Source: Streptomyces seoulensis (lineage in GTDB: Bacteria > Actinomycetota > Actinomycetes > Streptomycetales > Streptomycetaceae). Taken from it: a stretch of DNA of 64,000 nucleotides. The position numbers and the translations under genes are program-made. Shown one piece after another: positions 13,311-34,912 of this stretch (position 1 is its first letter; each line of letters begins with the position of its first letter). The stretch lies in the NCBI RefSeq assembly GCF_004328625.1, contig NZ_CP032229.1, positions 5,890,001 through 5,954,000 on the forward strand, read 5' to 3'. Under the pieces are notes generated by a model. The model was not told the DNA's origin and did not search any database. It worked only from the letters and a program-made list of their open reading frames with translations.

Positions 13311-14894
13311 ATGAACACCACCCGGCACAGCGTGCCCCTCTCCGTGGGGCAGGAGGCCATGAACGTGGCCTGGCGGCTCGAACCGCGGAAGTGGACCAAC
13401 ATCATCCCCGTCCCGCTCGCGGTCGAAGGCGAGCTGGACCTCGGCCGGCTGCGCGCCGCGGCCGACGTCCTGGGCACCACGTTCCCCCAGCTGCGGGGCC
13501 GGGTGACCGGAAGCCCCGGCGCCCACCGCCTCGACTGGGGCGACGCCCCGCCGATCCCCGTCACCGAGAGCACGACGGACCTCGGCCGCGACGAAGCGGT
13601 ACGCGCGGCCTGGCAGGTGCCCTTCGACCTGCGCACCGGCCCCCTGGCCCGCCTCCAGGTCGTCACCGGCCCCGGCTGGCGGGTCCTGCTGCTGACGCTG
13701 CATCACATCGTCGGCGACGGCGCGTCCGTGCTGCTCCTGCTGGAGGCGCTGCGCCAGGCGTACGCCGGTGAGCCCGTGACCGTGCCCGACGACCCCGGCG
13801 TCCTGGAGGCACACGCCCTGCGCACGGTCCGGCTGGCGGAGGGCGAGGAGGGCGAACGCCGCCGCGCGTACTGGGCCGCCGAACTCGACGCCGGGATGGC
13901 CCCCCTCACCCTCCCCGCGACCCCCGCGGAACCGCCGCGCTACACCATGGTGAGCGACCTGCTGCCCGACGACCTGGTCGCGGGGCTGCGGCACCGCGCC
14001 GAGACCTCCGGCGTCTCCTACGTCACCGCCCTGATGGCGGGCTACTACGCCCTGCTGCGCCGGCACAGCGGCTCCTCGGACATCCTGTCCTTCCTGCCCC
14101 ACCACGGCCGGACCGACCCGGAGACGCGCCAGCAGGTGGGCTACTTCGTCAACCTGCTGCCGATACGCGCCCGGATGAGCCCGGCGGACACCTACACCGA
14201 CGTCATGCGGCAACTGCGCGGGCGGGTCAAGAACGCCCTCGCGCACGGCGAACTCCCGCAGCCGACGATCATGCGCAGTGCCGGACTGGTGGGCCCGCAG
14301 GCCCGCGAGCTGACCCACCGCGGCATCTTCCAGTACTGGCACGCGGGCCTCCGTGACGGCCTGGACGTGATGGACCTCCCGCTGACCGCGCCGGGAGCCC
14401 GTGCGAGGCTCAGCCTGCTGGACATCGAGAGCACCGCCGGGTTCACCCTGGCCGTCATGGTCCGTCAGGACAGCGCCGGCACCCATGTGCTGTGGAAGGA
14501 CCCCGCCGGAGCCCTGGGCGAACCCCTGCTCAAGACGCTCGCCGCCGACTACCACGAGGTGCTCTGGACGATCGCCGACGACCCCGGCAGCCCGCTCGCC
14601 GAGATCGTCGCCGCGCCGGGCGCCGGGACCGCGTCCGCCACCGTGGGAACGGCCGTCGGCCGCACCGACGCCGACGCCCTCGCCACCATGACCGAGCTGT
14701 GGCAGGACATCCTGGGCATCGACGGCATCGGACCCGAGGACAGCTTCTTCGAGCTGGGCGGCCATTCCCTCCTCGCCGAGAGCCTGATCATCGACGTCTC
14801 GCGCCGGTTCGGGCGCGAGGTGGAGCTGAGCGTGCTGTTCAGCCGGCCGCGACTGGGCGAGTTCACCGAACACGTCGTGGGACCGAAGGAGTGA
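13311..14894 (+). CDS. NRPS C-T didomain protein
   Basis: A 527-residue condensation plus carrier protein. The C domain begins at PLSVGQEAM and has an intact HHIVGDG motif near residue 131; the carrier motif is LGGHSLLAES near 482. There is no adenylation domain, so its carrier must be loaded in trans or receive a chain by transfer, and it could provide the acceptor that the PKS protein lacks. ATG with GGGAG about eleven bases upstream. It lies 93 bases after the synthetase gene and overlaps the exporter gene by four bases. Confidence 0.92.
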   Translation: MNTTRHSVPLSVGQEAMNVAWRLEPRKWTNIIPVPLAVEGELDLGRLRAAADVLGTTFPQLRGRVTGSPGAHRLDWGDAPPIPVTESTTDLGRDEAVRAAWQVPFDLRTGPLARLQVVTGPGWRVLLLTLHHIVGDGASVLLLLEALRQAYAGEPVTVPDDPGVLEAHALRTVRLAEGEEGERRRAYWAAELDAGMAPLTLPATPAEPPRYTMVSDLLPDDLVAGLRHRAETSGVSYVTALMAGYYALLRRHSGSSDILSFLPHHGRTDPETRQQVGYFVNLLPIRARMSPADTYTDVMRQLRGRVKNALAHGELPQPTIMRSAGLVGPQARELTHRGIFQYWHAGLRDGLDVMDLPLTAPGARARLSLLDIESTAGFTLAVMVRQDSAGTHVLWKDPAGALGEPLLKTLAADYHEVLWTIADDPGSPLAEIVAAPGAGTASATVGTAVGRTDADALATMTELWQDILGIDGIGPEDSFFELGGHSLLAESLIIDVSRRFGREVELSVLFSRPRLGEFTEHVVGPKE

Positions 14895-16204
14895 ACGATC
14901 CCGGCACCGCCCGCGCCGGGGTGTGGACCCGCCCGGTGCTGCGGGCCGTGCTCGCCGCCGAGGGCGTGTCGATGCTCGGCAGCTCACTGACCGTGGTCGC
15001 CGTGCCGTGGCTGATGCTCACCACGACCGGATCGGCCCGTGACATGGGCCTGGTGATGGCCGCCCAGCTGGCGGGGACCACCGTGGTCGGCGTCCTGGGC
15101 GCCTCCTGGGCGGGCCGCGCGGGACCCCGCCGCGTGATGCTCCTCGGTGACGCCTGCCGGGGGACACTGATCGCGCTCGTACCGGTGCTGATCTCGGCGG
15201 GGGCCCTGGCCGTGCCCCTGACCGCCACCGCGATGTTCGTCTTCGGCGCGATCATGGCGCCCTACGCCGCCGCACAGCAGGCGATGCTCCCGGACGTCGT
15301 CGGCGAGGACGAGACGCTTCTGAGCCGGGCCACCGCCGCCCTCCAGGGCGCCATGCGGCTGAGCATGACGCTGGGACCGCCCCTGGCGGGGCTGCTCGTC
15401 GGGCTGCTCGGCCCCGTCCCCGTGATCCTCGCGGACGCCGCCAGCTTCGCCCTGTCCCTGCTCGTACTGCGCCGCTTCCTGCCGCGCACCACCCCTGCCG
15501 CGCCCAGACCCTCGCGCCTGGGCGCGGCAGGGGTACGCGCGCTGTTCGCCGAGCCGCTGACGGCCACCTGGTCCCTGGCTCTGGTCTGCTCCGAGTTCGC
15601 CTGGCAGGGACTGTTCGCGGCCCTGCCGGTCGTCGCGCTGGAGTTCGGCGACCGGGGGCCCACGGTCGCCGGGGTGCTGTCCGGGGCGTTCGGTGCCGCC
15701 GCGCTGACCGGGACCCTGCTCGTCGGACCGCTGCTGCGACGCCTGCCGGCACCGGTCCTGGCGACCGGCGGACGGGTGCTGCTGGCCCTCTGCTTCCTCG
15801 GCCTGCTCCTGCCGCTCGGCCTCGCCGCCGTGCTCGGCTGCCTCGTGCTCGCCGGGCTCCTCAACGGCGTCTCCAGCGCGCCCGTGGCTGCGGTGCGCGC
15901 GCTGCGGCTGCCCGCCGCCGTGCGCGCGGAGGCGCTCACCGTGGGCACCGCCGTCGCCCTGGCCGGAGGCACCTGCGGACTGCTCGTCAGCAGTACGACG
16001 ATCCAGCCGGGCGGTGCGCGCACGGTGTTCGCCGTACTCGCCGTGGCCCAGGTCACGGCCGCCGTTCTGCACGTGGCCGGCCTCGTCGCGCTGCGCCGCA
16101 CCACCGGCGCCGCTCCCCGGCGCCCGCCCGACGCGCCGCCGCCCTCTTCTTCCCGCGAGGCCGACCGGCCCGCGGGCCACCCGGTTCCCGAGGAGTTCCG
16201 TTGA
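14891..16204 (+). CDS. MFS-type exporter
   Basis: A 437-residue integral membrane protein with about 12 hydrophobic segments and MFS-like loops (SWAGRAGPRRVML between helices 2 and 3). GTG start overlaps the previous stop (GTGA). Position inside the biosynthetic operon suggests export of, or self-protection from, the product. A charged, Pro-rich tail follows the last helix. Confidence 0.85.
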   Translation: MNDPGTARAGVWTRPVLRAVLAAEGVSMLGSSLTVVAVPWLMLTTTGSARDMGLVMAAQLAGTTVVGVLGASWAGRAGPRRVMLLGDACRGTLIALVPVLISAGALAVPLTATAMFVFGAIMAPYAAAQQAMLPDVVGEDETLLSRATAALQGAMRLSMTLGPPLAGLLVGLLGPVPVILADAASFALSLLVLRRFLPRTTPAAPRPSRLGAAGVRALFAEPLTATWSLALVCSEFAWQGLFAALPVVALEFGDRGPTVAGVLSGAFGAAALTGTLLVGPLLRRLPAPVLATGGRVLLALCFLGLLLPLGLAAVLGCLVLAGLLNGVSSAPVAAVRALRLPAAVRAEALTVGTAVALAGGTCGLLVSSTTIQPGGARTVFAVLAVAQVTAAVLHVAGLVALRRTTGAAPRRPPDAPPPSSSREADRPAGHPVPEEFR

Positions 16205-17493
16205 CCACCCAGACCGGCGCGGCGCCGGACGGCCTCTGGCGCGGCGTCCCGCACCGCATGAGCATCGGCCTGCGCCACCAGCTCCGCGACGACGGCTCCC
16301 TGCCGTCGGAGAACCTGACCTGCTTCCTCTTCGCGTTCCCCGGCGTCCGCGTCGACGTTCCCCGGCTGGAGCGCGCGCTCGCGCGTGCGGTGACCGCCAA
16401 CCCCGCGCTCAGCCACCACTACCGCGTCGACCCCGACCACGGCCCGCAGTACCGGGAAGCGGAGTGGCGGCCGAGGATCGACGTCGTCCAGCCGCCCGGC
16501 CGGGGCTGGGAGAGCACCCGTACGGCGGCCCGCCGTATCGCGGACGCCGAGCTGGACAACCCCTTCGACCTGCGCGACGGACGCCTGCTGCGGGTGACCG
16601 CCGTACGCCGTCCGGACGGGGACGGCACCGTCCTGGTCGTCACGATCGACCACACCGTCTGCGACGGGATCTCCTACGCCCAGTTCCTCGACGACCTGTC
16701 CGCCGCCTACCGGGACGAGGACACGGCGGCACCGGACCGCCCTCGCGCCTCCCTGGCACGGGTCGCCGCCGCGGAACGCCGCGCCCTGGCCGGCGCCGCC
16801 CGCGAGGAACTCTGCGACGCGTGGCGCGGCAGACTGCCCGACGGCATCCCCGAACTGGTCCTCGCCCGGCCCACCCCCTGGACGGCGTGCACGGCGGAGG
16901 GCGACCAGGCCACGACCGTGCTGAGCGGTCCGGAGTACGAACGACACGTCCGTCACGCCGCCGAACTGTCGGTGTCCAGCTTCATGCTGGCCACCGCCAA
17001 GCTCCTGCACGCGATGCGTCCCAGCGTGCTGGGAGACGAACTCTCCTTCTTCTCCCCGCTGCCCGGACGCTTCGTCCCCGCCGCCCGGGGCGTCCTCGGC
17101 AACTTCGTCAGCGTCCTGCCGGTCACCGTGCCGGCCCCGCGCTCCGCCGACGTGGCGGCCACCGCCGAGGCGGTCCGCGAAGGCGTGCTGTGGACGCTGC
17201 GCCACCAGGGCGTCCCCTTCGACGTGATCCGGGACGCGGTCGGCAACGGCGACGCCGGGAACGGGGAGTTCTCCTATCAGCGCCGGTCGGTCTTCATCTC
17301 GGGCAACCCCGTGATGCGCCTCGAACTGGACGGCTTTCAGGGCCAGATGAGCGTGCCGACCCTGTCCGACGCCATGTTCGACATCAGCCTGTGGATCGCG
17401 GACACCGGCACCGAGCTGCGCGCCAGCAGTGTGTTCCGCACGTCCCTCCTCGACCGTTCCCTCGTCGAGACCTGGCTGAGCGCCCTGCACTGA
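16201..17493 (+). CDS. Free-standing condensation-type protein with variant DHxxxDG motif
   Basis: A 430-residue single C-domain protein. The catalytic motif reads DHTVCDG (residues about 150-156): the second His, thought to be the catalytic one, is kept while the first is Asp. Other C-domain landmarks are present (NPFDLRDGRLLRV, VLGNFVSVLPV). Such stand-alone C homologues act in amide or ester formation with soluble substrates or in chain release. TTG start overlaps the exporter stop (TTGA), with GAGGAG upstream. Confidence 0.85.
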   Translation: MTTQTGAAPDGLWRGVPHRMSIGLRHQLRDDGSLPSENLTCFLFAFPGVRVDVPRLERALARAVTANPALSHHYRVDPDHGPQYREAEWRPRIDVVQPPGRGWESTRTAARRIADAELDNPFDLRDGRLLRVTAVRRPDGDGTVLVVTIDHTVCDGISYAQFLDDLSAAYRDEDTAAPDRPRASLARVAAAERRALAGAAREELCDAWRGRLPDGIPELVLARPTPWTACTAEGDQATTVLSGPEYERHVRHAAELSVSSFMLATAKLLHAMRPSVLGDELSFFSPLPGRFVPAARGVLGNFVSVLPVTVPAPRSADVAATAEAVREGVLWTLRHQGVPFDVIRDAVGNGDAGNGEFSYQRRSVFISGNPVMRLELDGFQGQMSVPTLSDAMFDISLWIADTGTELRASSVFRTSLLDRSLVETWLSALH

Positions 17494-17697: not shown

Positions 17698-18714
17698 ATG
17701 TCGAAAGTCGAACCACACCCGTCGCCGGGACAACTCACCGACGGCCTCCCGCGATTCCTGCGGATCCTCGACGACCCGCTCTACGCGTCCCTCGTCGACC
17801 TCCAGGACCTGGTGAACTACGAGACCGCCGCGTTCTGGCGGGGTCGGCAGGTCAAGGCGCTCCACCTCCCCGTCACCACCTCCTCCATCTCCTCGCCCAT
17901 GGGCCTGGGCAGCGACTCGCTGCCGGTCCAGGTCGACCTCTTCGGAGTCCCCACCTACCTCGCCGACTCCATGCAGTTCCTGCTGGAGTACGGCTGCCGC
18001 ATCGCCGACCAGGGCTGCTACTACCTCATGCCGAGCTTCCGCGGCGAGGAGACCGACGCCACCCACCTCAGCCAGTTCTTCCACAGCGAGGCCGAGATCC
18101 CCGGCGGCCTCGACGACGTGATCGCGGTGGCCGACGCCTACCTGCGTCACCTCACCGAAGCGGTCCTGCGGGAGATGGAGGCACCCGTCGCCCGGATCGC
18201 CGGCGGCGTCGGCCACCTCACCGACTTCCTCGCCAAGCCGACGCCCCGGATCACCTTCGACGAGGCCGTCGCCGCACTGGACGGCGACCCGGAGTACTTC
18301 GAGTTCCACGACCAGTGGCGCACCATCACCCGGGCCGGTGAGCGCCGGCTCATGGAACTGCACGGCTCCGCGGTGTGGCTGACCCACTTCGACCACCTCT
18401 CGGTCCCCTTCTACCAGGCCACCGACGCCACCGGCACCAAGGCGCTCAACGCCGACCTGCTCATCGGCCCCGGCGAGGTCGTGGGCTGCGGCGAACGGCA
18501 CACCGACGCGGCCCACGCCCTCGGCGCGCTCGCCGCGCACGGCGTCCCGTCCGACGACTACGACTGGTACCTGCGCATGAAGCAGGAGAAGCCCCTGCAC
18601 ACCAGCGGGTTCGGCATGGGCGTCGAGCGCTTCTTCATGTGGGTGCTGCGCCACCCCGACGTGCGCGACCTGCAACTCCTGGAGCGCGCCAACGGCCTGG
18701 CCGCCACCCCCTGA
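17698..18714 (+). CDS. Class II tRNA-synthetase-like protein (AsnRS/AspRS catalytic core only)
   Basis: A 338-residue protein matching the class IIb aminoacyl-tRNA synthetase catalytic core: motif 2 region FRGEETDATHLSQFFHSEAE (about 114-133) and motif 3 GFGMGVERFFMWVLRH (about 300-315) with its conserved Arg. The N-terminal OB-fold anticodon domain of true AsnRS/AspRS is absent. Such truncated paralogues, like the archaeal AsnRS-related asparagine synthetase, activate Asp or Asn as the adenylate without charging tRNA. In this cluster it may make an amide, or an aminoacyl adenylate for transfer. ATG with strong GGAGGT eight bases upstream, after a 204-base gap that may carry an internal promoter. 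Confidence 0.85.
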   Translation: MSKVEPHPSPGQLTDGLPRFLRILDDPLYASLVDLQDLVNYETAAFWRGRQVKALHLPVTTSSISSPMGLGSDSLPVQVDLFGVPTYLADSMQFLLEYGCRIADQGCYYLMPSFRGEETDATHLSQFFHSEAEIPGGLDDVIAVADAYLRHLTEAVLREMEAPVARIAGGVGHLTDFLAKPTPRITFDEAVAALDGDPEYFEFHDQWRTITRAGERRLMELHGSAVWLTHFDHLSVPFYQATDATGTKALNADLLIGPGEVVGCGERHTDAAHALGALAAHGVPSDDYDWYLRMKQEKPLHTSGFGMGVERFFMWVLRHPDVRDLQLLERANGLAATP

Positions 18715-18765
18715 TCCTTTCGTCCCTCACCCGCCATCACACCGTCTTCCGACAAGGAGCACCCC

Positions 18766-19611
18766 ATGAACCTCGGCGACCTGACCGCCCAGCAGATCCG
18801 CGACATGAACTACAACGAGCTGATCTCCGTCGTGCGCGAGACCAACCGCCCGCCCGGCGGCGTGAAGACCATCTCCCACCTCGCCACCGGCGCCCACCTC
18901 GACAAGGACAGCCACGTCCTGGAGATCGGCACCAGCACCGGCATCACGGCCATCGAACTGGCCCGCCTGGTGGGCTGCCGCGTCACCGCCATCGACATCA
19001 ACGAGCGCAGCATCGCCGAGGCCCGCCGCCGCGCCGAGAGCCTCGGTGTGGACCACCTCATCACCTTCGAGGTCAACGACGCCACCGCCACCGGCTACCC
19101 CGACGACACCTTCGACCTGGTCTTCTGCGGCAACGTCACCTCCCTCATCCCGGACCGCGCGCGGGCCCTCGCCGAGTACTCCCGCGTCGTCAAGCCGGGC
19201 GGCTTCATCGCCGCCATCCCGATGTACTACGTCAAGCAGCCCTCCGAGCAGCTGCTCGCCGACGTCACCGCGGCCATCCAGGTCACCGTGGAGCCGCTGG
19301 AGGAGTCCTACTGGCTCGACTTCTTCCTCGGCGAGGGCCGTATCCCGTTCAGCCGGGAGCAGTACACCTTCGACTGGATCTCCGACGAGGTGGTCGAGTC
19401 CTTCGTCCGTGACATCCTCGCCCGGCCGCACCTCGACGAACTGAGCGCCGACGCCCGTGAGGTCCTCGCCGAGCAGTACGCCGTCTACATGCGGCTGTTC
19501 CGCGACAACCTCGCGCAGATGGGCTACACCGAGCTGCTCGTGCGCTGCGAGGCCGACGAGCTGGGCGAGCCGGAGCTGTTCGACTCCAGCCCGGTGCTCC
19601 CCAGGCCGTGA
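18766..19611 (+). CDS. Class I SAM-dependent methyltransferase
   Basis: A 281-residue methyltransferase with motif I VLEIGTSTG (about 50-58), acidic motif VTAIDIN, FDLVFCGNVTSLI and the post-motif VKPGGFIAAIP. This is the small-molecule (UbiE-like) class I fold. Substrate cannot be read from sequence; O- or N-methylation of the peptide product, or of the precursor made by neighbouring enzymes, is likely. AAGGAG lies just before the ATG, 51 bases after the synthetase-like gene. Confidence 0.88.
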   Translation: MNLGDLTAQQIRDMNYNELISVVRETNRPPGGVKTISHLATGAHLDKDSHVLEIGTSTGITAIELARLVGCRVTAIDINERSIAEARRRAESLGVDHLITFEVNDATATGYPDDTFDLVFCGNVTSLIPDRARALAEYSRVVKPGGFIAAIPMYYVKQPSEQLLADVTAAIQVTVEPLEESYWLDFFLGEGRIPFSREQYTFDWISDEVVESFVRDILARPHLDELSADAREVLAEQYAVYMRLFRDNLAQMGYTELLVRCEADELGEPELFDSSPVLPRP

Positions 19612-19679
19612 CGCCGCCCGGCACCGGAGCCCCGCCGGGCTCCGGTGCCGGCCCTCCACCCCGAGAGCGAGCCCCGTCC

Positions 19680-20573
19680 GTGAAGCTGCCCCCCTTCGAC
19701 CACGTGGCACCCCGGTGCCTCGCCGAGGCGGTGTCCCACCTCGCCGCCGCCCCGCCGGGCGATGCCCTGCCGCTGGCGGGCGGCCAGAGCCTCGTCCCGA
19801 TGCTGGCGTCCCGCACCCGCGCGTCCCGGCTCCTGGTCGACCTCCGCGACGTGGGGGAGCTGACCGGGGTGAGCGCGCCCGACGGCTCGCTCCGGATCGG
19901 TGCCATGACCCGCCAGCACACGCTCGCCACGGACCCCTTGATCCGCTCCCTCTGCCCCCTGATCGCGGAGGCCGCGGCGAGCACGGGGCACGCGTCCGTC
20001 CGGCACCGGGGCACCTTCGGGGGGACGCTCGCCCATGCCGCGAGCGCCGCCCAGCTCGTCGTCGCCGCGTACGCCCTGGACGCACAGGTCCTGGTCACCG
20101 GCCCCGGCGGACAGCACCTGACCGCCCTCAGATCCTGGTTCGGCGGGCCGCACAGCCCCGGAGTGCGCCACGGCGAGATCGTCACCGCCGTCCACCTGCC
20201 GTCGCGCGGGCCGGGCAGCGGACACGCACTGCGGCAGCTGGGGCATCCGGCCGGCGGACGGCCGGTCGCGTCGGTCGCCGCCGTCGTGGACACCGCGCCG
20301 GACGGCGCCGTGCTGCGGGCCGAACTCACCGTCGGTACACGGGTGTCCGCCCCCACCGCGGTGGACGTCACGCACCGGCTCCGGGAGGCGGCCGGCGTGG
20401 CCGCCGCTGTCGTCCCCGACGGTCCGGGGGAGCCGGACCGTCAGGGGCCCCCGGCCGCGTACTGCCGGCACGTGACCGGTGTCCTGGCGGAGCGCGCGTT
20501 GACCGAGGCCATCACCAGGGCACGCCGCGCGGACACCGCGGCACTGCCCGCACCGAGGCGGGAGACACCATGA
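19680..20573 (+). CDS. FAD-binding subunit of XDH/CoxM-family molybdenum hydroxylase
   Basis: A 297-residue FAD subunit with FAD loop AGGQSLVPML and the second loop RHRGTFGGTLAHA. I prefer the GTG at 19680 because members of the family start K-x-P-P-F-D, exactly as here (KLPPFDHV); a longer form from GTG 19608 overlapping the methyltransferase stop is possible. It passes electrons from the iron-sulfur clusters to an acceptor. It overlaps the next gene by four bases, so the two subunits are translated together. Confidence 0.87.
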   Translation: MKLPPFDHVAPRCLAEAVSHLAAAPPGDALPLAGGQSLVPMLASRTRASRLLVDLRDVGELTGVSAPDGSLRIGAMTRQHTLATDPLIRSLCPLIAEAAASTGHASVRHRGTFGGTLAHAASAAQLVVAAYALDAQVLVTGPGGQHLTALRSWFGGPHSPGVRHGEIVTAVHLPSRGPGSGHALRQLGHPAGGRPVASVAAVVDTAPDGAVLRAELTVGTRVSAPTAVDVTHRLREAAGVAAAVVPDGPGEPDRQGPPAAYCRHVTGVLAERALTEAITRARRADTAALPAPRRETP

Positions 20574-23416
20574 CCTGCGCACCCGGCACCGCCCCGGAGC
20601 CGCCCGAGGGTGAGCCGCACGCCTGCGGGACCCTCGCGGACCATCTGCGCGACTGCCTGGGCCGCGCGTCCGTCCGCCTGGGCTGCGAGGACGGCGTCTG
20701 CGGCTCCTGCACCGTGCTCCTCGACGGCCGCACGGCCCGCGCCTGCACGGTGCTCGCGGCGCAGGCGGACGGCCTGACCGTACGCACCGCCGAGGACACC
20801 GGCGACGCGCTGATGCGGCACCTGCGCGAGGTGCTGTGGGCCGAACACGCCTTCCAGTGCGGGTTCTGCGCCACCGGCTTCCTCATGGAGATCCACGCCC
20901 TGCTCACCGAGCACCCCGACCCCTCTGAGGAGCAGATCCGGGACCGGCTCGCGGGCAACCTGTGCCGGTGCACCGGCTACGAGAGCATCGTCCGCGCGGT
21001 CCTCGTCGCGGCACGCACCTGGACACCCGGCCCGGCGCCCTCCCACCCGGCCACCGCCGCGACCACCGACCCCACGGTCGGCACCAGCGCGCTGCGGGCG
21101 GAGGACCGTACCGTCCTCGACGGCCGCGCCCGCTACATCGCCGACCTCGACGTGCCGGGCACCCTGCACGCGCGCTTCGTGCGCGGCACCCGTCCGCACG
21201 CCCGGATCACCGGCCTTGACCTGACGGCCGCCCGGGCCGCACCCGGCGTCGTCGCCGTCCTCACGGCCGCCGACATGCGGGACGGCCTCAACCCGATCAC
21301 CATCGCGTGCCCCCTTGAGGGCTACACCCCGCCGGCCTTCACCCCGCTCACCGGGGACCGGGTCCGGTTCGAGGGCGACCCCGTCGCGCTGGTCGTCGCG
21401 GAGAGCCAGGCACAGGCCGAGGACGCCGCCGCGGCCGTGGGCATCGGGTACGAGGACCTGCCGCCCGTGACGGACGCACGGGCCGCCGCCGACGGCGCCC
21501 ACCCGCCGCTCTTCCCCGACCTGGACGGCAACGTCCTGTACACCGAGCACCGCAGGCACGGCGACGTGGACGCCGCCTTCGCGTCCGCCGCCCGGGTGGT
21601 GCGCCACCGACTCCGCCAGGACCGCGTGCAGAACGCGCCGCTCGAACCCCGGGGCGGCCTCGCCTCCTACGACCCCGCCGACGGCAGCCTCAGCTACGAC
21701 GTGGCGTCCCAGTCGCCCACGTCCCACCGCGCGTACCTGTCCGACGTGCTCGGCATCGACATCGGCTCGGTCCGGGTCCGGGTCCCCCCGAACATGGGCG
21801 GCTCCTTCGGGATCAAGGGCGGGGTGTTCCGCGAGGACATCGCCGTGTGCTGGGCGAGCAGACACCTGGGCCGTCCCGTCCGCTGGATCGAGGACCGCCG
21901 GGAGCACCTGATCGCGGCCGGACAGGCCAGGGGCGAGGAGATCGACGTCGAAGCGGCCCTGGGGGAGGGCGGCGAACTGCTGGCCCTGCGCGCCGACCTC
22001 GTGGTCGACCAGGGCGCCTACCCCGTCCCCCCGGTCGCCAGCGCCGTCTTCGTCGCCATCGTCGGCTGCCTGATCCCCAACGCCTACCGCGTCCCGGCGT
22101 ACGAGTTCACCGGCCGGCTGGCCCTGAGCAACCGCACCCCGTACGTCGCGTACCGGGGTCCCTGGGAGATGGCGACCTTCGCCGCCGAACGCACCATGGA
22201 CCTGATCGCCCGTGAGGTGGGCGAGGAACCGGCCGACTACCGGCTGCGGCACCTCAACCCGGTGGACGGCCCCGACCCCCGCATGATCACCGGCGCCCGG
22301 CTCACCGACGTGCCCGAACTCGGCTCGACCCTGCGGCTGGCCCGGCGGGAGGCAGCCGTGGAGACGTTCCGCGAGCGCCAGGCGCGGGCGCGTGCGGAGG
22401 GCCGGCTGCTCGGCCTCGGCATCGCGACCCTGCTGGAGCCGGCCCCCGGTCCCTGGAGCCTGCACGAGGCGATGGGCGCCCACATGGGGCCGGAGCCGGT
22501 CCGCGTGCTCTTCACCGCCGAAGGCCGCGTCGAGATCAGGACGGGACAGATCCCGCACGGCCAGGGGCACGTCACCACGCTCTCGCAGATCGCCGCGACC
22601 ACCCTCGGCCTGCCGCTGCACGCGGTCGACGTCGTGCACGGGGACACCGACCGGGTCCCGTTCAGCCTGGCCGGGACCGGCGCGAGCCGGGCGGCGGCCC
22701 TCGCGGGCGGGGGAGTGCTGCGCGCCGCCCGCCGCCTGCGGGCCGACCTGCTCGCCGCCGTCGCGCGGCGCACCGGACACGCACCCGGTGCTCTGGACAT
22801 CGTCGCCGCGCACGTCGTACACGTCCCCGACGGCCGCACCGTGGGCACGGTCGCCGCGCTGGCCGGAGCCCACGTCGCCACCGGCGAGGGACGCTCGCGG
22901 CTGGACGTGAGCGAGGTCTTCGACAGCGAGGAGACCGGCTGGGCGGAGGCGACCCACTGCTGCTGGGTGGAGATCGACCCGGACCTCGGCACGGTCTGTG
23001 TCGACCGCTACCTGATCGTCGCCGACAGCGGACGCATCATCAATCCGGCGATCGCCGACGGACAACTGCGCGGCGGCGCCGTGCAGGGCATCGGCACCGT
23101 GCTCCAGGAACGGTCGGGCTACGGCCCCGACGGCCGCCAGCTCTCCCGCGACCTCACCGAATACCTGCTGCCCACCACCCGGACCGCCCCGGCCATCGAC
23201 ATCGTCCACCTGGAGTCGCGGCGGGCCGGCGACGTGCCCTACCGGGGACTCGGCGAGGGCGGCGCGGTCCTGGCGCCCTCGGCCGTGGTCGGTGCCGTCG
23301 AGGACGCCCTCGCGCACCTCGGTGTCCGCCTCACCGAACGTCACCTGCCGCCGTGGCGTGTCCTCGACCTGCTGGCGGCCTTCCGGACCCTCACGCCCGT
23401 ACCGGAGTACCGATGA
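20570..23416 (+). CDS. XDH-family molybdenum hydroxylase, fused [2Fe-2S] and molybdopterin domains
   Basis: A 948-residue protein. Residues 1-140 are the iron-sulfur part, with Cys39, Cys44, Cys47 and Cys59 for one cluster and Cys97, Cys100, Cys132 and Cys134 for the second; the usual N-terminal beta-hairpin before the first cluster is short. Residues about 175-940 are the molybdenum-cofactor domain of the aldehyde oxidase/xanthine dehydrogenase family, ending with the active-site GLGEGGAV segment (Glu). These enzymes hydroxylate an electron-poor carbon with water or oxidise an aldehyde. In most bacteria the iron-sulfur and molybdenum parts are separate genes. Substrate unknown; a heteroaromatic or amino-acid-derived building block is plausible. 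Confidence 0.9.
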   Translation: MTCAPGTAPEPPEGEPHACGTLADHLRDCLGRASVRLGCEDGVCGSCTVLLDGRTARACTVLAAQADGLTVRTAEDTGDALMRHLREVLWAEHAFQCGFCATGFLMEIHALLTEHPDPSEEQIRDRLAGNLCRCTGYESIVRAVLVAARTWTPGPAPSHPATAATTDPTVGTSALRAEDRTVLDGRARYIADLDVPGTLHARFVRGTRPHARITGLDLTAARAAPGVVAVLTAADMRDGLNPITIACPLEGYTPPAFTPLTGDRVRFEGDPVALVVAESQAQAEDAAAAVGIGYEDLPPVTDARAAADGAHPPLFPDLDGNVLYTEHRRHGDVDAAFASAARVVRHRLRQDRVQNAPLEPRGGLASYDPADGSLSYDVASQSPTSHRAYLSDVLGIDIGSVRVRVPPNMGGSFGIKGGVFREDIAVCWASRHLGRPVRWIEDRREHLIAAGQARGEEIDVEAALGEGGELLALRADLVVDQGAYPVPPVASAVFVAIVGCLIPNAYRVPAYEFTGRLALSNRTPYVAYRGPWEMATFAAERTMDLIAREVGEEPADYRLRHLNPVDGPDPRMITGARLTDVPELGSTLRLARREAAVETFRERQARARAEGRLLGLGIATLLEPAPGPWSLHEAMGAHMGPEPVRVLFTAEGRVEIRTGQIPHGQGHVTTLSQIAATTLGLPLHAVDVVHGDTDRVPFSLAGTGASRAAALAGGGVLRAARRLRADLLAAVARRTGHAPGALDIVAAHVVHVPDGRTVGTVAALAGAHVATGEGRSRLDVSEVFDSEETGWAEATHCCWVEIDPDLGTVCVDRYLIVADSGRIINPAIADGQLRGGAVQGIGTVLQERSGYGPDGRQLSRDLTEYLLPTTRTAPAIDIVHLESRRAGDVPYRGLGEGGAVLAPSAVVGAVEDALAHLGVRLTERHLPPWRVLDLLAAFRTLTPVPEYR

Positions 23417-24669
23417 GACTGAGCAAGATCCCGCACGCCGACCCGCTGGGCGCCCCGCTCCCCGACCCCGGCGACCCCGAGGCCGACCTGCCGCACCAGC
23501 TCGGCCTGGCCCGGTTCACCGACGCGGGATTCCCCTGGTTCTCCCCGGTCGGCCAGCGCCTGGTCACCCGCATCCAGGCAGTCGTCCGCCGGGAGATGGA
23601 GCGCGCCGGATACGCCGAGTTCCGCGGCCCCGCCGTCCATCGCGTCGAGACACTCGCGCCGGCCGGCTGGCTGGAGCGGTTCGGCGGTGAACTGATCGGC
23701 TTCAGCGCCCCGTTCGACCAGTACACCCTGGCCGCCACCAGTGAGGAACCCCTGCTGAGCTACATCGGCCCGGCGGGGCTCGCCTCCCACCGCCAGCTCC
23801 CGATGCGGCTGTTCGAGTTCCGGGAGATCTTCCGGTTCCGCGACCGGCCCCAGAGCATCTACAACTCCCGCCAGTTCCAGTGCTGTCTCTTCGCCAGCCT
23901 GGACACCGACCACGCCGCCTACCTCCAGAGCGCGGCACACGCCCAGCGCACGGTCCGCGCCGTCCTGGACCGGCTCCGGCTCCGCGCCGAACTGGTCCGG
24001 GACGAGACCACCGGTGGCTTCGAGTTCATCTTCCCCTACGCCCGTGGCGACCGGCCCCGCAGCCGCACCATCCCCTACCACCGCGACGCCGGGCGCGCCA
24101 CGACCGCCGAGGACGAGATCCCCCAGGGCGGGATCGCCATGGGGTACGGCTACACCCACACCCCCGCCTTCGACGTGCGCTTCCGCGACGAGGACAACCA
24201 GGTGCGCACCCCGGTGATGGGGACGTACGGCCTGGGCATCCAGCGCTGCGTGCTCGCCCTGCTGGAACAGCACCGCGTGCCCGGCGGTGTCGCCCTGCCC
24301 GCCGACGTGCGGCCGTTCGACGTGATGGTGGCCGTCCAGGGCAGGGACCCCGCCACGACGGACGCGGCCGGAGAACTCCACCGCGTCCTGCTGGAGCACG
24401 ACGTCAGCGTCGTGCTCGACGACCGGCACGGCGCCTCGATGGGCAGCCGGATGCGCTTCGCCGACGCGGTGGGTGTCCCCTGGCGGGTGGTCGTGGGCCG
24501 TGACGACGCGAAGAGCGGGTCCTTCCGCCTGCGCGGCCCGCGCGGCGCGCGGGACCCGGAACGGTCTCTGACCGTGGACGGTCTGCTCGCCCACCTCGCC
24601 GCGCGGGGACACGAGGAGTGGACCGTCCGGCCCGGAAACGACGACGAGCGAATCGGAGCGACCGCATGA
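23413..24669 (+). CDS. Prolyl-tRNA-synthetase-like protein
   Basis: A 418-residue class IIa synthetase homologue. It keeps the TSEE loop (near 108-112), the motif 2 region FEFREIFRFRD, a TYGLGIQR motif 3 with its Arg (near 270), and a C-terminal HGTP anticodon-like domain (VVLDDRHGASMGSRMRFAD). It lacks the large editing insertion of most bacterial ProRS, and the segment LMRxREFxMKDAYSF is altered to IYNSRQFQCCLFASLD. It may be a drug-resistant ProRS, or an adenylating enzyme recruited to the pathway. ATG overlaps the preceding stop (ATGA). Given the proline-like codes of two A domains in this locus, a prolyl link is attractive but unproven. Confidence 0.85.
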   Translation: MRLSKIPHADPLGAPLPDPGDPEADLPHQLGLARFTDAGFPWFSPVGQRLVTRIQAVVRREMERAGYAEFRGPAVHRVETLAPAGWLERFGGELIGFSAPFDQYTLAATSEEPLLSYIGPAGLASHRQLPMRLFEFREIFRFRDRPQSIYNSRQFQCCLFASLDTDHAAYLQSAAHAQRTVRAVLDRLRLRAELVRDETTGGFEFIFPYARGDRPRSRTIPYHRDAGRATTAEDEIPQGGIAMGYGYTHTPAFDVRFRDEDNQVRTPVMGTYGLGIQRCVLALLEQHRVPGGVALPADVRPFDVMVAVQGRDPATTDAAGELHRVLLEHDVSVVLDDRHGASMGSRMRFADAVGVPWRVVVGRDDAKSGSFRLRGPRGARDPERSLTVDGLLAHLAARGHEEWTVRPGNDDERIGATA

Positions 24670-25775
24670 GCACGATGAGCACGACGAACGGCACCACCGC
24701 CGCCGCGCACGGCACGAACGGACCGGCCGCGCCGGCACCAGGCGGCGACGCGGCGCGCTGGCCCGTGCCGCTGCCCGCCGACGCCACGCTGGGGGTGTGG
24801 GCCCCCAGTTCACCGGCCCCCGTCCTCTTCCCCCGCCGCTTCGCCCGTGGCCTCGACGCGCTGCGCCGGCGCGGGCACACCGTGGTCCTCGGCGACTCCT
24901 GCCGGTCAGCGCAGGGGCCGGGCACCCGGCCGCCCGAGGCGCTGGCCGAGGAACTGCACACCCTGCTCGCCAAGACCGACGGCGTGATCGCCGCCGTCGG
25001 CGGCTGGACGCTCACCCCGGTCCTTCCCCACCTGGACTTCGACGCCATCGGGCGCGCGGCCAAGCCGCTCGTCGGGTACAGCGACCTGACCTCCCTGGTC
25101 AACCTCGTGCCCCACCGCTCCGGCCTTGTCGCCTTCCACGGCCCCATGGTCGTCTCCGAGTGGGGCGAGGCCGACGGCCCCTGGGAGCCGACCGAGTCCG
25201 AGTTCGACCAGGTGCTCGGCGCACAACACCACTGGACGGAAAGGACGGTGGCCACTGCGGGGGAGTGGTCGGACGAGAACCTCTTCTGGGACCGGGAGGA
25301 CGACCGCCGCCGGCAGGGCAACAGCGGCGGCCAGCAACCGCGCGTCCTGCGGACCGGCGAGGCGTCCGGCCCTCTCTGGGGCGGCTCCCTCGTCGTACTC
25401 GGTCTGCTGCTCGGCACCCCGCTGTGGCCCGAACCCGCCCCCGGCTCGCTCCTGTTCCTGGAGGCCGACGGCATGGCTCCGGACGAACTCTGGGCCCGGC
25501 TGGAGCAGTTCCGGCTGGCCGGTGTCCTCGACCGGGCCGCAGGCGTGATCATGAGCAGGATCGCCAACCCGCACTCCACGTCGTCCGGTTACGCCGGATA
25601 CGACGAGGTCCTCCTGCGCTGCCTGCCCGGCGACATGCCGGTCGCCGCCGGCCTCCCCCTGGGCCACGCCGATCCGATGGTCACCCTGCCGGTCGGCGGC
25701 CGGGCACAGCTGAGCTGCCAGGCCCCCACCACCGCGCCCCGGCTGCGTCTTTTGCGGCCGGGTCCCACCCCGTAG
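24666..25775 (+). CDS. Peptidase S66 family protein, MccF/LD-carboxypeptidase-like
   Basis: A 369-residue S66 peptidase: nucleophile Ser139 in GYSDLT, the LWGGSLVVL and LLFLEADG segments (Glu), and the terminal GLPLGHADPMVTLPVG with the catalytic His. The family comprises murein LD-carboxypeptidases and MccF, which cleaves the amide between an amino acid and the adenylate analogue in microcin C and so confers immunity. Placement directly after a ProRS-like gene (ATGA overlap) argues for the immunity or precursor-trimming role over cell-wall recycling. No signal peptide is visible, so it is cytoplasmic, as MccF is. Confidence 0.86.
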   Translation: MSTMSTTNGTTAAAHGTNGPAAPAPGGDAARWPVPLPADATLGVWAPSSPAPVLFPRRFARGLDALRRRGHTVVLGDSCRSAQGPGTRPPEALAEELHTLLAKTDGVIAAVGGWTLTPVLPHLDFDAIGRAAKPLVGYSDLTSLVNLVPHRSGLVAFHGPMVVSEWGEADGPWEPTESEFDQVLGAQHHWTERTVATAGEWSDENLFWDREDDRRRQGNSGGQQPRVLRTGEASGPLWGGSLVVLGLLLGTPLWPEPAPGSLLFLEADGMAPDELWARLEQFRLAGVLDRAAGVIMSRIANPHSTSSGYAGYDEVLLRCLPGDMPVAAGLPLGHADPMVTLPVGGRAQLSCQAPTTAPRLRLLRPGPTP

Positions 25776-26804
25776 TCCACGCGAGCAGGGCGGTTCGGCA
25801 GGGCCCGAGCAGCGCTGACGAGCTGACGAGAAGAGCCCCCCGTGCTTAACATCGCCGACACGCTCGCCCATTGGTGCAGTACCGGCCGCGCCTGCGCCGT
25901 GGCCACGGTGACCACCGCCACGGGCAGCACACCGCTGCCCGTGGGGACCTCGATGGCCGTGGACGCCGAGGGCAACGTCGCGGGCAGCATCTCCGGCGGC
26001 TGTGTGGACGCGGCCGTCCACGAACTGTGCCGACGGCAGCTCGACGAGGACGGCGCGGCCGAGGAGGTCCGCTTCGACTCCTCCGACGACGACGCCTGGG
26101 CGGCCGGTCTGATCTGCGGGGGCAGCATCGGCGTCCATGTGCAGCGCGTCCATCCGGCGGACCGGCTGCACTTGTCCACCACGCTCACCGGGGCGGTGGG
26201 CGGTCGGCCCCCGGGTCTCCTGCAGATCACCAGGAGCGCCGACCCGCTCCTGGCAGGCCGCATCCTGCCGCTCTCCGGCGACCCGGCCTCCGCCCCGGCC
26301 GGACGGGTCCCGGCGGCCCTGGCCGTGCTCGCCGCCGCCGCGCACCGCGCGGGCGTCACCGGCCTCGTGCGCGCTCCCGGGGGAGAAGGCCGCGCCCCGG
26401 CCGAGGCCCTGGTGCACAGCAGCCGGCCCGCACCGGCGATACTCGTGTTCGGCGCGGTGGAGTTCGCCGACGCCCTGAGTCGGGCCGGCCGGTTCCTGGG
26501 CTATCACGTCACGGTGTGCGACGCCCGCCCGGTCTTCGCCACCGCCGAGCGCTTCCCGCACGCCGACCGAGTCGTCGTGGACTGGCCGCACCGGTTCCTC
26601 GCCCGTACCGCAACGGACGAACGCACCGCCGTGTGCGTCCTCACCCACGACTCCAGGTTCGACGTCCCGCTGCTGCGCGACGCGCTGCGGCGGCCGCTCG
26701 GCTACATCGGCGCCATGGGCTCACGCCGTACCCACGAACGCCGCCTCGAACTCCTGCGCGCGGAGGGCGTCGGGCCCGGGGCCCTCGCCCGCCTGAACGG
26801 GCCG

Positions 26805-27655
26805 CTAGGGGGTGTCCGGAAAGTCGTTGAGCCAGAGGCGGAGGCAGGCAAGGGTGACCATGGCCCGGTAGTGAATGGCTCGTTTGTCGTAGCGTGTGGC
26901 CAGGGCCCGGTTCTGCTTGAGGCGGCTGAAGCAGCGCTCGATGACGTTGCGCCGCCGGTAAGCGGCTTTGTCGAGGCGGCAGCGGCTCTCGCCGCGGCGG
27001 ATGCGTCCGTTGATCTGGTCGATGCGTTCCGGGATCGCTGCCGCGATGCCGCGTCGTCGCAGGTAGGCGCGGATCTTGCGGGCCGAGTAGCCTTTGTCCG
27101 CGACGACGCGGCCGGGCCGGGTGCGCGGCCGGCCCGGCCCAGGACGCGCGATCTTGATCTGGTCCATGACCGGCTCGAGCTGAGTGCAGTCGTTCACGTT
27201 CCCGCCCGTCAGCGTGAACGCCAGGGGCCGGCCCAGGCCGTCGCAGGCCAGGTGGATCTTGCTGGTCAGGCCGCCCCGCGACCGGCCGAGCGCCTCGCCT
27301 TCCCAGGGCCCCCTTTTCGGGCCCCGGCGGCGTGCTGATGGGCCCGGACCGTGGTCGAGTCCACGCACACAACCGTCCAGTCGACCCGCCCGACGGCGTC
27401 GGAGTGCTGCTGGACGTGGGCCAGCAGACGGTCCCACGTGCCGTCGGCGGACCAGTTCCGGAACCGTTCGTAGACCGTCTTCCAGGGCCCGTACCGCTCG
27501 GGCAGGTCACGCCAGGCAGCCCCGGTGGACAGCTTCCACAAGATCCCGTTCACCACCTGCCGCCGGTCCCGACCAGGCCTGCCCATCCGACCCGGCGCCA
27601 GCAACGGAGCGATCAACGCCCACGACTCATCGGTCAGTTCATGCCTACGCACCAC
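26805..27655 (-). CDS. IS5-family transposase, two frames joined by a probable -1 frameshift
   Basis: The first frame (27655-27266, 129 residues from GTG) begins VVRRHELTDESWALIAPLL and holds the first catalytic Asp (VCVDSTTVRAH). The second frame continues to 26805 with VADKGYS (second Asp) and NVIERCFSRLKQNR (Glu), ending FPDTP with a stop formed inside the target duplication. The frames overlap at CGAAAAGG, AAAA at 27314-27317, where a lysyl-tRNA on AAA could slip back one base. The joined product would be about 283 residues, normal for this family. Confidence 0.88.
26808..26826 (+). repeat. Left terminal inverted repeat of the IS
   Basis: GGGGGTGTCCGGAAAGTCG, identical over 19 bases to the inverse of the right end at 27675-27693; a mismatch follows, then two more matching bases. 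Confidence 0.95.
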
Positions 27656-27674
27656 GAACGGACCAACGAGCCAC

Positions 27675-27693
27675 CGACTTTCCGGACACCCCC
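27675..27693 (-). repeat. Right terminal inverted repeat of the IS
   Basis: CGACTTTCCGGACACCCCC on the + strand, the exact inverse complement of the left end; followed by TA and then the resumed xdhC frame. Confidence 0.95.
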
Positions 27694-29069
27694 TAGGGCT
27701 GGACATCGGCGCCGCGACCCCGCAGGAGACCGCGGTGTCCATCGTCGCCGAGATCCTCGCCCACACCCGGGGCAGGCCGGGCCTCCCGCTCGGCCGGACC
27801 ACCGGCCCCATCCACCCCCGGGGCGTCGAAGTCGCGCATGCCGCGCAGCGGTGAGCACACCACCCACACGCCGGCCAGCGAGGTGCCAAGGGCCGCGATC
27901 CACAGGGTGCCCCTGATCCCGGCCCACTCGCCGAACACGCCGCCGGCCAGCGCCCCGAGCGTCAGCGCGCCGAAACCGATGAAGCGGACGGTGGCGTTCA
28001 CCCGGGCCAGCATGGCCGGGGGGCACATCGTCTGGCGGTAGCTCACCTGGGCGACGTTGTACACGACGACGCCGTAGCCGGTGAGGAGAAGGCCGGCCAG
28101 GGCCGGGGCGAGCAGGACGCCGCGCCCCGCGAGCGGCACCAGCAGCAGGGAGGGGAAAGTCACCACCGGCACCAGCCAGACGGCACGAGCCTGCCCCACC
28201 CGGCGCACGACCCGGTAGGCCGACAGCGCCCCGAGCACCCCTCCGAGACCGAGCACGCTCATGACGGCCCCGGCCGCGGACCCGGCGAGGCCGAGCACCC
28301 CGGTCAGGAAGAGGACCTGCACCGCGCCGAGCACCCCGGTGAAGAAGTTCGCGGTGGCGGTGCAGCCGGTGATGGCCAGCAGGGTGCGGCTGCGGGCCAC
28401 GAACCCCAGCCCGGCGCGCACTTCGGCGAGCAGCGCGGGGCGCGCCCCCTTCGCCCGAGCCGCCGGGTCCGGGGCCCGCACCCGGCGCAGCAGCAGGGAC
28501 GACGCCAGGTAGCCGAGGGCCGTCGCCAGCACCGGGTAGGCGGGCCCGGCGAGCTGGGCCAGCGAGCCGGCCACGCCGGGCCCGGTGATCTGGGCGAGGG
28601 ACTGACTGGACTGGAGCCGGGCGTTGCCCTGGAGCAGCCGGTCCCGGCGGACCAGGGCCGGCAGGTGGGACTGGTAGGCGACATCGAAGAGCACGGCCAG
28701 GACCCCGCACAGCAGGGCCACGCCGATGAGCTGGGCGACCGTGAGCAGGCCGCCCCACCAGGCCACCGGAATGGTGCACAGCAGCAGCGCCCGGCCGGTG
28801 TTGACGCGCCGCATCAGGTGCCGCTGCCGCAGCTGTGTCACCCACACCCCGGCCGGGAGGCCGATCAGCAGGTAGCCGACCGTCTCCGCGGCCCCGAGCA
28901 GACCCATCTCCAGCGGGGTCGCCGCGAGCGTGGTGGCGGCCAGCAGCGGCAGCAGGGCGTTGCCGACGTAGGTGCCGAACTGGCTGACCGAGTCCGCCGC
29001 CCAGAACAGTCCGAAGTCGCGGGGGTGGGGCCGGCGGCCGCACGCCGGCGCGGTGACCGGCTCGCTCAC
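27693..29069 (-). CDS. MFS-type exporter, last gene of the DABA-type NRPS operon
   Basis: A 458-residue membrane protein of the MFS_3/enterobactin-exporter-like type: starts with a short cytosolic part, RDFGLFWAADSVSQFGTYV, then about 12 hydrophobic segments. GTG start overlaps the aldolase stop. Its last 50 or so codons are antisense to the 3' end of xdhC. The stop TAG is part of the CTAG target sequence and was there before the IS came in, so the protein is not truncated by the insertion. Likely exports the region 2 peptide. Confidence 0.85.
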   Translation of the reverse strand: MSEPVTAPACGRRPHPRDFGLFWAADSVSQFGTYVGNALLPLLAATTLAATPLEMGLLGAAETVGYLLIGLPAGVWVTQLRQRHLMRRVNTGRALLLCTIPVAWWGGLLTVAQLIGVALLCGVLAVLFDVAYQSHLPALVRRDRLLQGNARLQSSQSLAQITGPGVAGSLAQLAGPAYPVLATALGYLASSLLLRRVRAPDPAARAKGARPALLAEVRAGLGFVARSRTLLAITGCTATANFFTGVLGAVQVLFLTGVLGLAGSAAGAVMSVLGLGGVLGALSAYRVVRRVGQARAVWLVPVVTFPSLLLVPLAGRGVLLAPALAGLLLTGYGVVVYNVAQVSYRQTMCPPAMLARVNATVRFIGFGALTLGALAGGVFGEWAGIRGTLWIAALGTSLAGVWVVCSPLRGMRDFDAPGVDGAGGPAEREARPAPGVGEDLGDDGHRGLLRGRGADVQP

Positions 29070-34874: not shown

Positions 34875-34912
34875 GGCTTCCCTCGGGATTGGTGGATGGG
34901 ACGCCGGAGCGG

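Follow-up and report, generated by a model that had tools for sequence, protein, structure and literature searches.

What does a bacterium make with an operon that encodes two proteins descended from aminoacyl-tRNA synthetases (aaRS) beside a peptidase related to MccF? The question is raised by a 64,000-nucleotide stretch of Streptomyces seoulensis (contig NZ_CP032229.1, positions 5,890,001 to 5,954,000 of the forward strand; 'the window' below), whose genome is complete at 6.43 Mb in 2 contigs. The best overall explanation, in our view a likely one, is that the operon would build a non-hydrolysable aminoacyl adenylate, here prolyl, of the same kind as agrocin 84 and microcin C, and hence a phosmidosine-type inhibitor of prolyl-tRNA synthetase (ProRS). 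As judged from the sequence, the operon is marked by homology to AgnA, MccD and MccF, whose genes frequently co-occur, and by a non-canonical ProRS paralogue beside a normal ProRS. The genes at its centre are the following (gene starts throughout are inferred).

17698..18714, + strand: AgnA-type catalytic core of asparaginyl-tRNA synthetase (AsnRS), predicted P–N bond former (AgnA homology, clade, motifs)
18766..19611, + strand: MccD-like S-adenosylmethionine (SAM)-dependent transferase (PDB match to MccD 5fcd; family profile; homology to Arad_15003)
19608..20573, + strand: molybdenum (Mo) hydroxylase, FAD subunit (Pfam FAD_binding_5, 4.3e-34)
20570..23416, + strand: fused 2Fe-2S and molybdopterin subunit of N-heteroaromatic hydroxylase type (Pfam; PDB 1t3q)
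23413..24669, + strand: short ProRS-like protein, predicted prolyl transferase or immunity enzyme (Pfam; homologues)
24666..25775, + strand: MccF-type S66 peptidase (PDB matches to MccF; catalytic triad)

The AsnRS-like protein is of the AgnA type

The original prediction described an AsnRS/AspRS catalytic core without an anticodon domain, and this is borne out: the 338-residue protein matches Pfam tRNA-synt_2 (E 1.3e-24) and, marginally, tRNA-synt_2d, and no anticodon domain is found in it by Pfam. In the plasmid collection it is 43.8% identical over 94% of its length to AgnA ('Agrocin84-synthetase') of plasmid pAgK84. The agnA gene has been described as a truncated AsnRS homologue without anticodon domain (PMC4392301); our statements on the agn operon draw on this review and on the plasmid record. 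A tree of 33 rows places 29 AgnA-type rows, the window's included, on one branch (support 100/99; present in 99% of 200 bootstrap trees) that is set apart from three canonical AsnRS and one row named asparagine synthetase A (AS-A). The rows ITFR16, agnA and brady have long branches in this tree, which includes 18 of the 19 AgnA-type open reading frames (ORFs) fetched, that of L049 being left out.

In the core, motif 2 (FRGE) and the pair of Glu residues that follows it are retained, as are motif 3 (GFGxGxER) and the pocket Arg; YLADSMQF and GCGERH stand in place of the AsnRS forms and differ from the three canonical AsnRS and the AS-A-named row. The family is sparse, being present at E 1e-60 in 20 of 392 Streptomyces genomes and in 2 of 296 genomes of a class-wide draw, with the window's own genome counted in both (the genus draws comprise 391-392 genomes of a larger group, mostly the same set). 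A role in translation was considered and dropped, as the anticodon domain is missing and no AsnRS encoded in the genome scores above the family cut-off. From homology, clade and motifs we predict an AgnA-type, P–N bond-forming enzyme.

The neighbouring transferase and peptidase resemble MccD and MccF

The SAM-dependent transferase finds MccD as its best PDB match (5fcd, 2.8e-23; next 5.5e-16). A profile of 11 relatives strengthens the match to 8.9e-47 over positions 3-259 of 278, with the next best at 8.6e-27 over 111 positions. It is also 44% identical to Arad_15003, which is encoded beside agnA. In microcin C, MccD takes part in attaching the aminopropyl group to the phosphate (PMC10491745). 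The window ORFs scanned, a part of the total, gave no Orn_Arg_deC match that would point to the decarboxylase partner of MccD, the MccE N-domain, which depends on pyridoxal 5'-phosphate (PLP). A tblastn search of 72,556 plasmids with the MccD-like protein (E 1e-15) gave 40 records, the best 30 of which are listed. Four are plasmids with the module described below (NBC_01707, Xenorhabdus, Exiguobacterium and Peribacillus), six are from Agrobacterium/Rhizobium (the one examined is pAgK84) and 30 from Escherichia, Salmonella or Providencia. The two of these 30 that were examined have the order ThiF-MFS-MT-GNAT-S66, that of microcin C.

The S66 gene (Pfam Peptidase_S66 and S66C in ORF 24618-25775) probably starts at 24666, at an in-frame ATG that overlaps the stop of the ProRS-like gene. 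MccF is its best PDB match (8.9e-31), ahead of the murein carboxypeptidases 6uuk (4.2e-21) and 5z01 (2.6e-16), and its Ser, Glu and His align with the MccF triad, which is intact as had been claimed. The target of MccF is the carboxamide bond that joins the aspartamide to AMP (PMC7157772). Because such a cut would leave adenosine phosphoramidate, the enzyme could serve synthesis as well as immunity.

The ProRS-like protein has an altered active site

Pfam identifies tRNA-synt_2b (9.8e-10) and HGTP_anticodon (5.2e-10) in ORF 23353-24669. We refine the start to 23413, giving 418 residues, the position at which the homologues P0001-P0012 also begin. The editing insertion was said to be absent, and indeed the segment of the INS domain is a gap in the alignment to the genome's own ProRS. 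That enzyme, which lies at C1:4594405-4596057 in a 592-residue frame and has the insertion, answers the question whether this is the only proS of the genome: it is not. In a comparison of motifs 2 and 3, as had been suggested, the AsnRS core keeps both motifs and the pocket Arg and Glu residues; the ProRS-like protein has lost the motif-2 Glu. In the latter, FRFR replaces FRxE and NSRQF replaces RxREF; T-x-E, the motif-2 Arg and the motif-3 Arg are retained. The same change is shared by 12 of 12 close homologues (FRxE reads xRFR, REF reads RQF). The score to the NCBIfam proline--tRNA ligase family is 146 bits against a cut-off of 558. All three marks of a canonical bacterial ProRS are thus missing (INS domain, FRxE in motif 2, a score above the family cut-off), and with the motif-2 Glu lost the synthetic site is not conserved as in an AgnB2-type immunity aaRS.

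The family is rare. Thirteen proteins of at least 60% identity are found among 20 matches, in a search that scored about 8,000 candidates (another search of about 8,000 candidates had 1864 matches, of which the best 120 are listed). Of 392 Streptomyces genomes, 2 carry the gene, and a family draw of 394 genomes yielded it once, in the window's own genome. Given a normal ProRS elsewhere in the genome and the replacement of the motif-2 Glu, the ProRS-like protein is, by its sequence, no housekeeping enzyme. A Streptomyces ProRSx/tRNA-ProA recoding pair was considered and dropped, since neither a tRNA nor any Rfam match at gathering score was found in the window, and the editing insertion is missing.

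Two precedents suggest what the protein does. AcmF of ascamycin and SbzA of SB-203208 descend from aaRS and transfer an acyl group to a sulfamate or sulfonamide nitrogen (PMC12945691), whereas AgnB2 is a resistant leucyl-tRNA synthetase (LeuRS) of the agrocin operon that has kept its synthetic site (PMC5059758). Because a resistant aaRS still has to charge tRNA, it retains its site, as AgnB2 does, so a biosynthetic role is favoured here; by analogy with AcmF and SbzA the protein probably transfers proline.

AgnA-type cores recur with exchangeable partners

Cores of the AgnA type turn up repeatedly in Actinomycetota, Bacillota and Pseudomonadota, in many cases beside an MccD-like gene, an MccF-like gene or both. 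We fetched 19 loci, 18 from Streptomyces and one from another genus. Within the fetched stretch 11 have an S66 gene, five an MccD-like gene and four both; one further genome has an S66/MccD-like pair on another contig (L080), and another has S66 about 16 kb from the AgnA-type gene. Random gene placement would give 0.07 S66 neighbours across the 18 genomes scanned (G014 left out). ATP-grasp genes lie nearby in 7 of the 19 loci and nonribosomal peptide synthetase (NRPS) genes in 5, with no overlap (12 of 19 together), leaving 7 with neither.

Nine plasmid loci were examined, five with S66, five with a strong MccD-like gene and four with both. A second aaRS is present in five: LeuRS in agrocin, the ProRS-like protein in NBC_01707, alanyl-tRNA synthetase (AlaRS) with a short AlaRS-like protein in Peribacillus and in Exiguobacterium, and, in Xenorhabdus, LeuRS with a short class II protein that is a distant relative of the ProRS-like protein in the window. 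The Xenorhabdus bovienii megaplasmid (L059, 9872-18522) carries the AgnA-type, MccD-like and S66 genes, a nucleoside phosphorylase, the full LeuRS and the ProRS-related protein in one run. On the sequences compared, the AsnRS core is the constant part of the module and the other aaRS the variable part.

Some of these loci are of interest in their own right. The AlaRS and short AlaRS-like genes stand with the AgnA-type/MccD-like pair in Peribacillus (L058, 5822-12442) and Exiguobacterium (L060, 7900-18811), and we predict from the gene content that these clusters give alanyl-nucleotide antibiotics. A Pantoea agglomerans plasmid (L056, 11404-12999) has a GNAT domain, a type also present in the MccE gene, fused to an AgnA-type core and followed by a major facilitator superfamily (MFS) gene, possibly a minimal aminoacyl-nucleotide cluster. 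The NBC_01707 plasmid encodes a short AlaRS-related protein (L062, 15296-16129) about 54 kb from its AgnA-type gene. Genes named 'asparagine synthetase A' occur with methylaspartate mutase near NRPS genes in L057 (1-1864) and L070 (6104-10207), perhaps for supply of 3-methyl-asparagine; the ITFR-16 copy (L070) falls outside the AgnA-type clade of the 33-row tree.

A predicted prolyl phosphoramidate nucleotide

We infer a prolyl phosphoramidate nucleotide as the product, the order of the steps towards it and its conjugation to a peptide; all catalytic steps of the route are likewise inferred. The product would be an adenine nucleotide whose 5'-phosphorus bears an N-acyl phosphoramidate, the acyl group being proline. 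The AgnA-type core would adenylate asparagine, the amide nitrogen going into the P–N bond, a job done in microcin C by the unrelated ThiF enzyme MccB; an aspartyl-phosphoramidate AMP, the species named McC462 in PMC7157772, would result. The S66 peptidase would then strip the aspartyl group to leave adenosine phosphoramidate, and/or detoxify the product in the cell. The ProRS-like protein would activate proline and load the phosphoramidate nitrogen, much as AcmF and SbzA act on sulfamate and sulfonamide nitrogens. The MccD-like enzyme would alkylate a phosphate oxygen and the Mo-hydroxylase oxidise the adenine, probably at C8. The MFS proteins would export the product, to which NRPS and diaminobutyrate genes, condensation (C) domains and an asparagine-synthase-like ligase may add a peptide carrier; such a carrier is possible because the NRPS and diaminobutyrate genes travel with the operon.

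The Mo-subunit is most similar to quinoline 2-oxidoreductase (1t3q, 3.9e-109), and adenine C8 is a fitting substrate position for such an enzyme. Phosmidosine (C16H24N7O8P, calculated [M+H]+ 474.15), of which Streptomyces durhameusis is a producer, carries 8-oxo and P-O-methyl groups, and the Mo-hydroxylase and the MccD-like enzyme fit both. It is a prolinamide phosphoramidate nucleotide of Streptomyces (PMC6429109, PMC7540745) that has been listed with the target 'Pro-tRNA synthetase?' (PMC7689648). The operon therefore offers candidates for the Pro, 8-oxo and O-alkyl groups. The NRPS genes would be superfluous for free phosmidosine, and no phosmidosine gene cluster appears in the literature passages searched. 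Membership of the phosphoramidate-nucleotide class is highly probable and a prolyl acyl group somewhat favoured; that all three phosmidosine-type features are present falls a little short of an even prospect.

The original prediction knew of no characterised cluster with this combination; in kind, however, it is known. The agn operon of agrocin 84 has the AsnRS core AgnA, an adjacent MccD-like SAM enzyme (44%), an aaRS paralogue (AgnB2) and an MccF-like protein (AgnC5, 34%). It differs in having LeuRS where the window has the ProRS-like protein and in its own acyl and sugar genes, and neither Mo-hydroxylase nor NRPS is annotated in the 37-kb agn stretch read. Microcin C (mccABCDEF) shares MccD and MccF homologues and an MFS exporter; its ThiF-type MccB, of which the window ORFs scanned contain no match, is replaced here by the AsnRS core, and the window adds NRPS genes. 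AcmF and SbzA are also aaRS-derived transferases, of AlaRS and isoleucyl-tRNA synthetase ancestry and acting on sulfamate or sulfonamide nitrogen, in contrast to the ProRS ancestry and predicted phosphoramidate nitrogen here. Homology to the gene sets of agrocin 84 and microcin C lends strong support to the idea of an aminoacyl-adenylate mimic paired with immunity of the MccF type; the original interpretation as a whole holds in part. Where two uses of the paralogues had been left side by side, inhibitor targets or adenylating enzymes, the AgnA-type core and the changed motif 2 of the ProRS-like protein favour biosynthetic enzymes. ProRS is the likelier target.

Several observations weigh against this explanation. 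The MccD-like step is the most doubtful part, because agrocin 84 has the gene and yet is not known to carry a P-alkyl group; the step may be something other than P-alkylation. The Mo-hydroxylase could act on another heteroaromatic, and its maturation gene is broken: an 892-bp IS5-type element (26805-27696) with 25-nt inverted repeats splits xdhC, whose homology to XdhC of NBC_01707 (annotated there as uninterrupted, 381 residues) ends at 26810 and restarts at 27690-27815. Because of this interruption the Mo enzyme may be poorly matured in this strain unless another maturation protein helps. The ProRS-like protein need not mean proline, because Xenorhabdus pairs its ProRS-related protein with a full LeuRS. 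The module itself is often incomplete: S66 is missing from 8 of 19 fetched stretches and 4 of 9 plasmid loci, an MccD-like gene is present in just 5 of 19 and (strongly) 5 of 9, and the ProRS-like gene is in none of the 19, where a second aaRS of Leu or Ala type was not searched for. A Trp in what we take to be the nucleobase-stacking loop of MccF is shared by the window's peptidase and 13 of 15 cluster copies (L036, L039 and L048 left out of the alignment); it also occurs in 7 of 9 stand-alone S66 controls, does not discriminate and was discarded as proof of MccF function. For AgnA itself the review passages give no biochemical proof of the reaction (PMC4392301).

The operon and its surroundings

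The remaining features of the cluster are as follows.

11400..13217, + strand: asparagine-synthase-like ligase, N terminus VAGIAGW, without the glutaminase Cys2 (Pfam Asn_synthase 7.3e-56)
13311..14894, + strand: C domain and peptidyl carrier protein (PCP), without adenylation (A) domain (Pfam)
14891..16204, + strand: MFS exporter, GTG start inferred (Pfam MFS_1 1e-29 in ORF 14492-16204; start/stop overlap)
16201..17493, + strand: stand-alone C domain (Pfam 2.9e-24)
25842..26810, + strand: first part of xdhC (Mo-hydroxylase maturation), split by the insertion sequence (IS) (Pfam XdhC)
26805..27696, no strand assigned: IS5-type IS within xdhC (25-nt terminal inverted repeats; ORF with DUF4096, IS4/5 transposase)
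27693..29405, − strand: second MFS exporter, ORF limits with the start unrefined (Pfam)
29066..30136, − strand: PLP aldolase-like protein (Pfam Beta_elim_lyase 2.6e-87)
30150..31763, − strand: argininosuccinate-lyase-like protein, part of a predicted 2,3-diaminobutyrate set (Pfam; NCBIfam argH 280 bits)
31622..32950, − strand: ATP-grasp ligase (Pfam)
32857..33951, − strand: SbnA-like PLP enzyme (NCBIfam PLP_SbnA_fam 223 bits, cut-off 350)
33948..34916, − strand: GHMP kinase (Pfam)
34913..56138, − strand: four NRPS genes (1470, 1080, 521 and 4002 residues; Pfam)

The operon runs rightward from about 11.4 to 26.8 kb, in the order Asn-synthase-like ligase, C-PCP, MFS, C, AsnRS-like, SAM transferase, FAD, 2Fe-2S/Mo, ProRS-like, S66 and xdhC. 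Four-base start/stop overlaps link C-PCP, MFS and C, and likewise the genes from the SAM transferase through FAD, Mo and ProRS-like to S66. The term 'NRPS/PKS operon' proved loose, however: the operon itself has the C-PCP and C proteins and the Asn-synthase-like ligase, and the polyketide synthase (PKS), of ketosynthase-acyltransferase (KS-AT) type, is on the opposite strand (about 1.7-4.3 kb) with no match in one of the two related clusters compared. The ligase scores 248 bits to NCBIfam asn_synth_AEB (cut-off 267), and its NBC_01707 homologue begins MAGIAGW. Cys2 is the glutaminase nucleophile of asparagine synthase; because it is missing, the ligase probably couples an amine other than glutamine-derived ammonia. 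Kinase/PLP/lyase sets like that of the window presumably make 2,3-diaminobutyrate in pacidamycin; a literature search on such sets there gave no result.

Streptomyces sp. PsTaAH-137 shares this operon order, as does a linear plasmid of Streptomyces sp. NBC_01707, the ten genes from Asn-synthase to S66 having 66-95% protein identity, so that the grouping is not due to chance. In PsTaAH-137 the genes follow the order of the window all the way from its left flank to position 56.8 kb; the DNA is about 75-83% identical, and the alignment has gaps. The NBC_01707 plasmid still has the operon and xdhC, together with the NRPS/diaminobutyrate block on the right, a BTAD regulator and a single A-domain gene. 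Among 27 cluster proteins compared, the AsnRS-like core (90/87% in PsTaAH-137/NBC_01707) and the SAM transferase (95/92%) are best conserved; the others are 63-89% identical, excluding left-block mismatches in NBC_01707.

The left block (window 1662-11072 and L011 14218-19977, leftward) encodes a luciferase-like monooxygenase, TylF, KS-AT, A-PCP and thioesterase (TE), and is retained in PsTaAH-137. TylF and KS-AT have no match in the NBC_01707 stretches read, where the luciferase-NRPS, A-PCP and NRPS-TE genes match other NRPS genes at just 35-36%. Without a true counterpart there, the left block was dropped from the core; it would be an extra pathway or a variant tailoring block. On this comparison the core of the cluster is the operon with the right NRPS block, because NBC_01707 retains both and not the left block. 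No report of the cluster was found in the open-access literature searched.

The 4002-residue NRPS (window 44130-56138) ends in a domain of beta-lactamase/penicillin-binding-protein type, possibly for offloading or cyclising. Just beyond the cluster (window 57524-60714) lie genes for an RTX-repeat protein and a GH5 cellulase with CBM2.

Alternative explanations

Other assignments can be made for both aaRS-like proteins. The ProRS-like protein could be a self-immunity ProRS, the counterpart of AgnB2, with no part in synthesis, proline entering through an NRPS A domain or another ligase. It retains the HGTP anticodon domain, T-x-E and both motif Arg residues, and the A domain at 9417-11072 has a code, DVQFAAHVAK, that we take to be Pro-like. 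The agrocin operon provides the precedent of a resistant LeuRS (PMC5059758), and resistant copies may be just about 30% identical to the housekeeping aaRS (PMC9437257). We think immunity unlikely all the same, and less likely than proline transfer: motif 2 is changed in every close family member, whereas the AgnB2 site is conserved, the ligase-family score is far below cut-off, and the Pro-code A-PCP gene has a mere 36% match, to another NRPS gene, in NBC_01707, where the ProRS-like gene is kept. The AsnRS core, for its part, might be an archaeal-type AS-A that makes asparagine or another amide from ammonia, the P–N bond being formed by something else. NCBI gives the name 'asparagine synthetase A' to several homologues, agnA in NC_006277 included, PRK06462 scores 246 bits on the core (cut-off 322), and AS-A is AspRS-like without a tRNA-binding domain (PMC9437257). 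This seems improbable, given a far stronger PDB match to AsnRS (3.2e-21) than to AS-A (1.5e-9), signatures that separate the core from the AS-A-named row, and a single clade spanning clusters that differ in the second aaRS yet share nucleotide-antibiotic genes.

Two further explanations concern the cluster as a whole. If the aaRS-like pair adenylated amino acids for the free-standing carrier protein of an ordinary NRPS, with S66 as a processing peptidase, the product would contain no nucleotide. The C-PCP and C proteins of the operon do lack A domains, SerRS-like amino acid:carrier protein ligases exist (PMC9437257), and 5 of the 19 other loci have NRPS genes close to the AgnA-type gene. This would, however, leave the MccD homology unexplained, and AsnRS cores also stand with MccD-like/MccF-like genes where no NRPS is annotated in the stretches read, in agrocin 84 and on Bacillota, Xenorhabdus and Bradyrhizobium plasmids; it is the least probable of the readings considered, and very doubtful. 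A better case, though still a minority one in our judgement, is that two unrelated pathways adjoin, a nucleotide antibiotic operon and an NRPS peptide cluster. The varied neighbours of AgnA-type genes fit this, as do the agrocin 84 and Bacillota stretches without annotated NRPS and the left block without true counterpart in NBC_01707. Against it, each of the three clusters (window, PsTaAH-137 and NBC_01707) combines the operon with the NRPS and diaminobutyrate genes of the right block, in differing order, and C domains and a carrier protein lie inside the operon itself.

Implications

Beyond the prolyl phosphoramidate nucleotide proposed for this operon, the AgnA-type cores may be a general, independently evolved counterpart of MccB that would turn free asparagine into aspartyl-phosphoramidate nucleotides. 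The aspartate would be stripped in a biosynthetic step by an MccF-type peptidase, an enzyme known from other systems for immunity, and the nitrogen would be re-acylated by an aaRS-like enzyme particular to each cluster (Pro here, Ala or Leu elsewhere). This generalisation is tentative and, in our judgement, less likely than not. If true, it would describe a widespread modular family of aminoacyl-adenylate antibiotics whose target is set by the second aaRS gene, in this case joined to a nonribosomal peptide. The cluster itself offers a concrete, clonable gene set for the questions of phosmidosine biosynthesis and of the P–N step of agrocin 84, and would make an unexplained biosynthesis testable. 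The recurring AsnRS core with MccD-like/MccF-like genes and a swappable second aaRS would also let genome miners predict the aaRS target of hidden Trojan-horse antibiotics.

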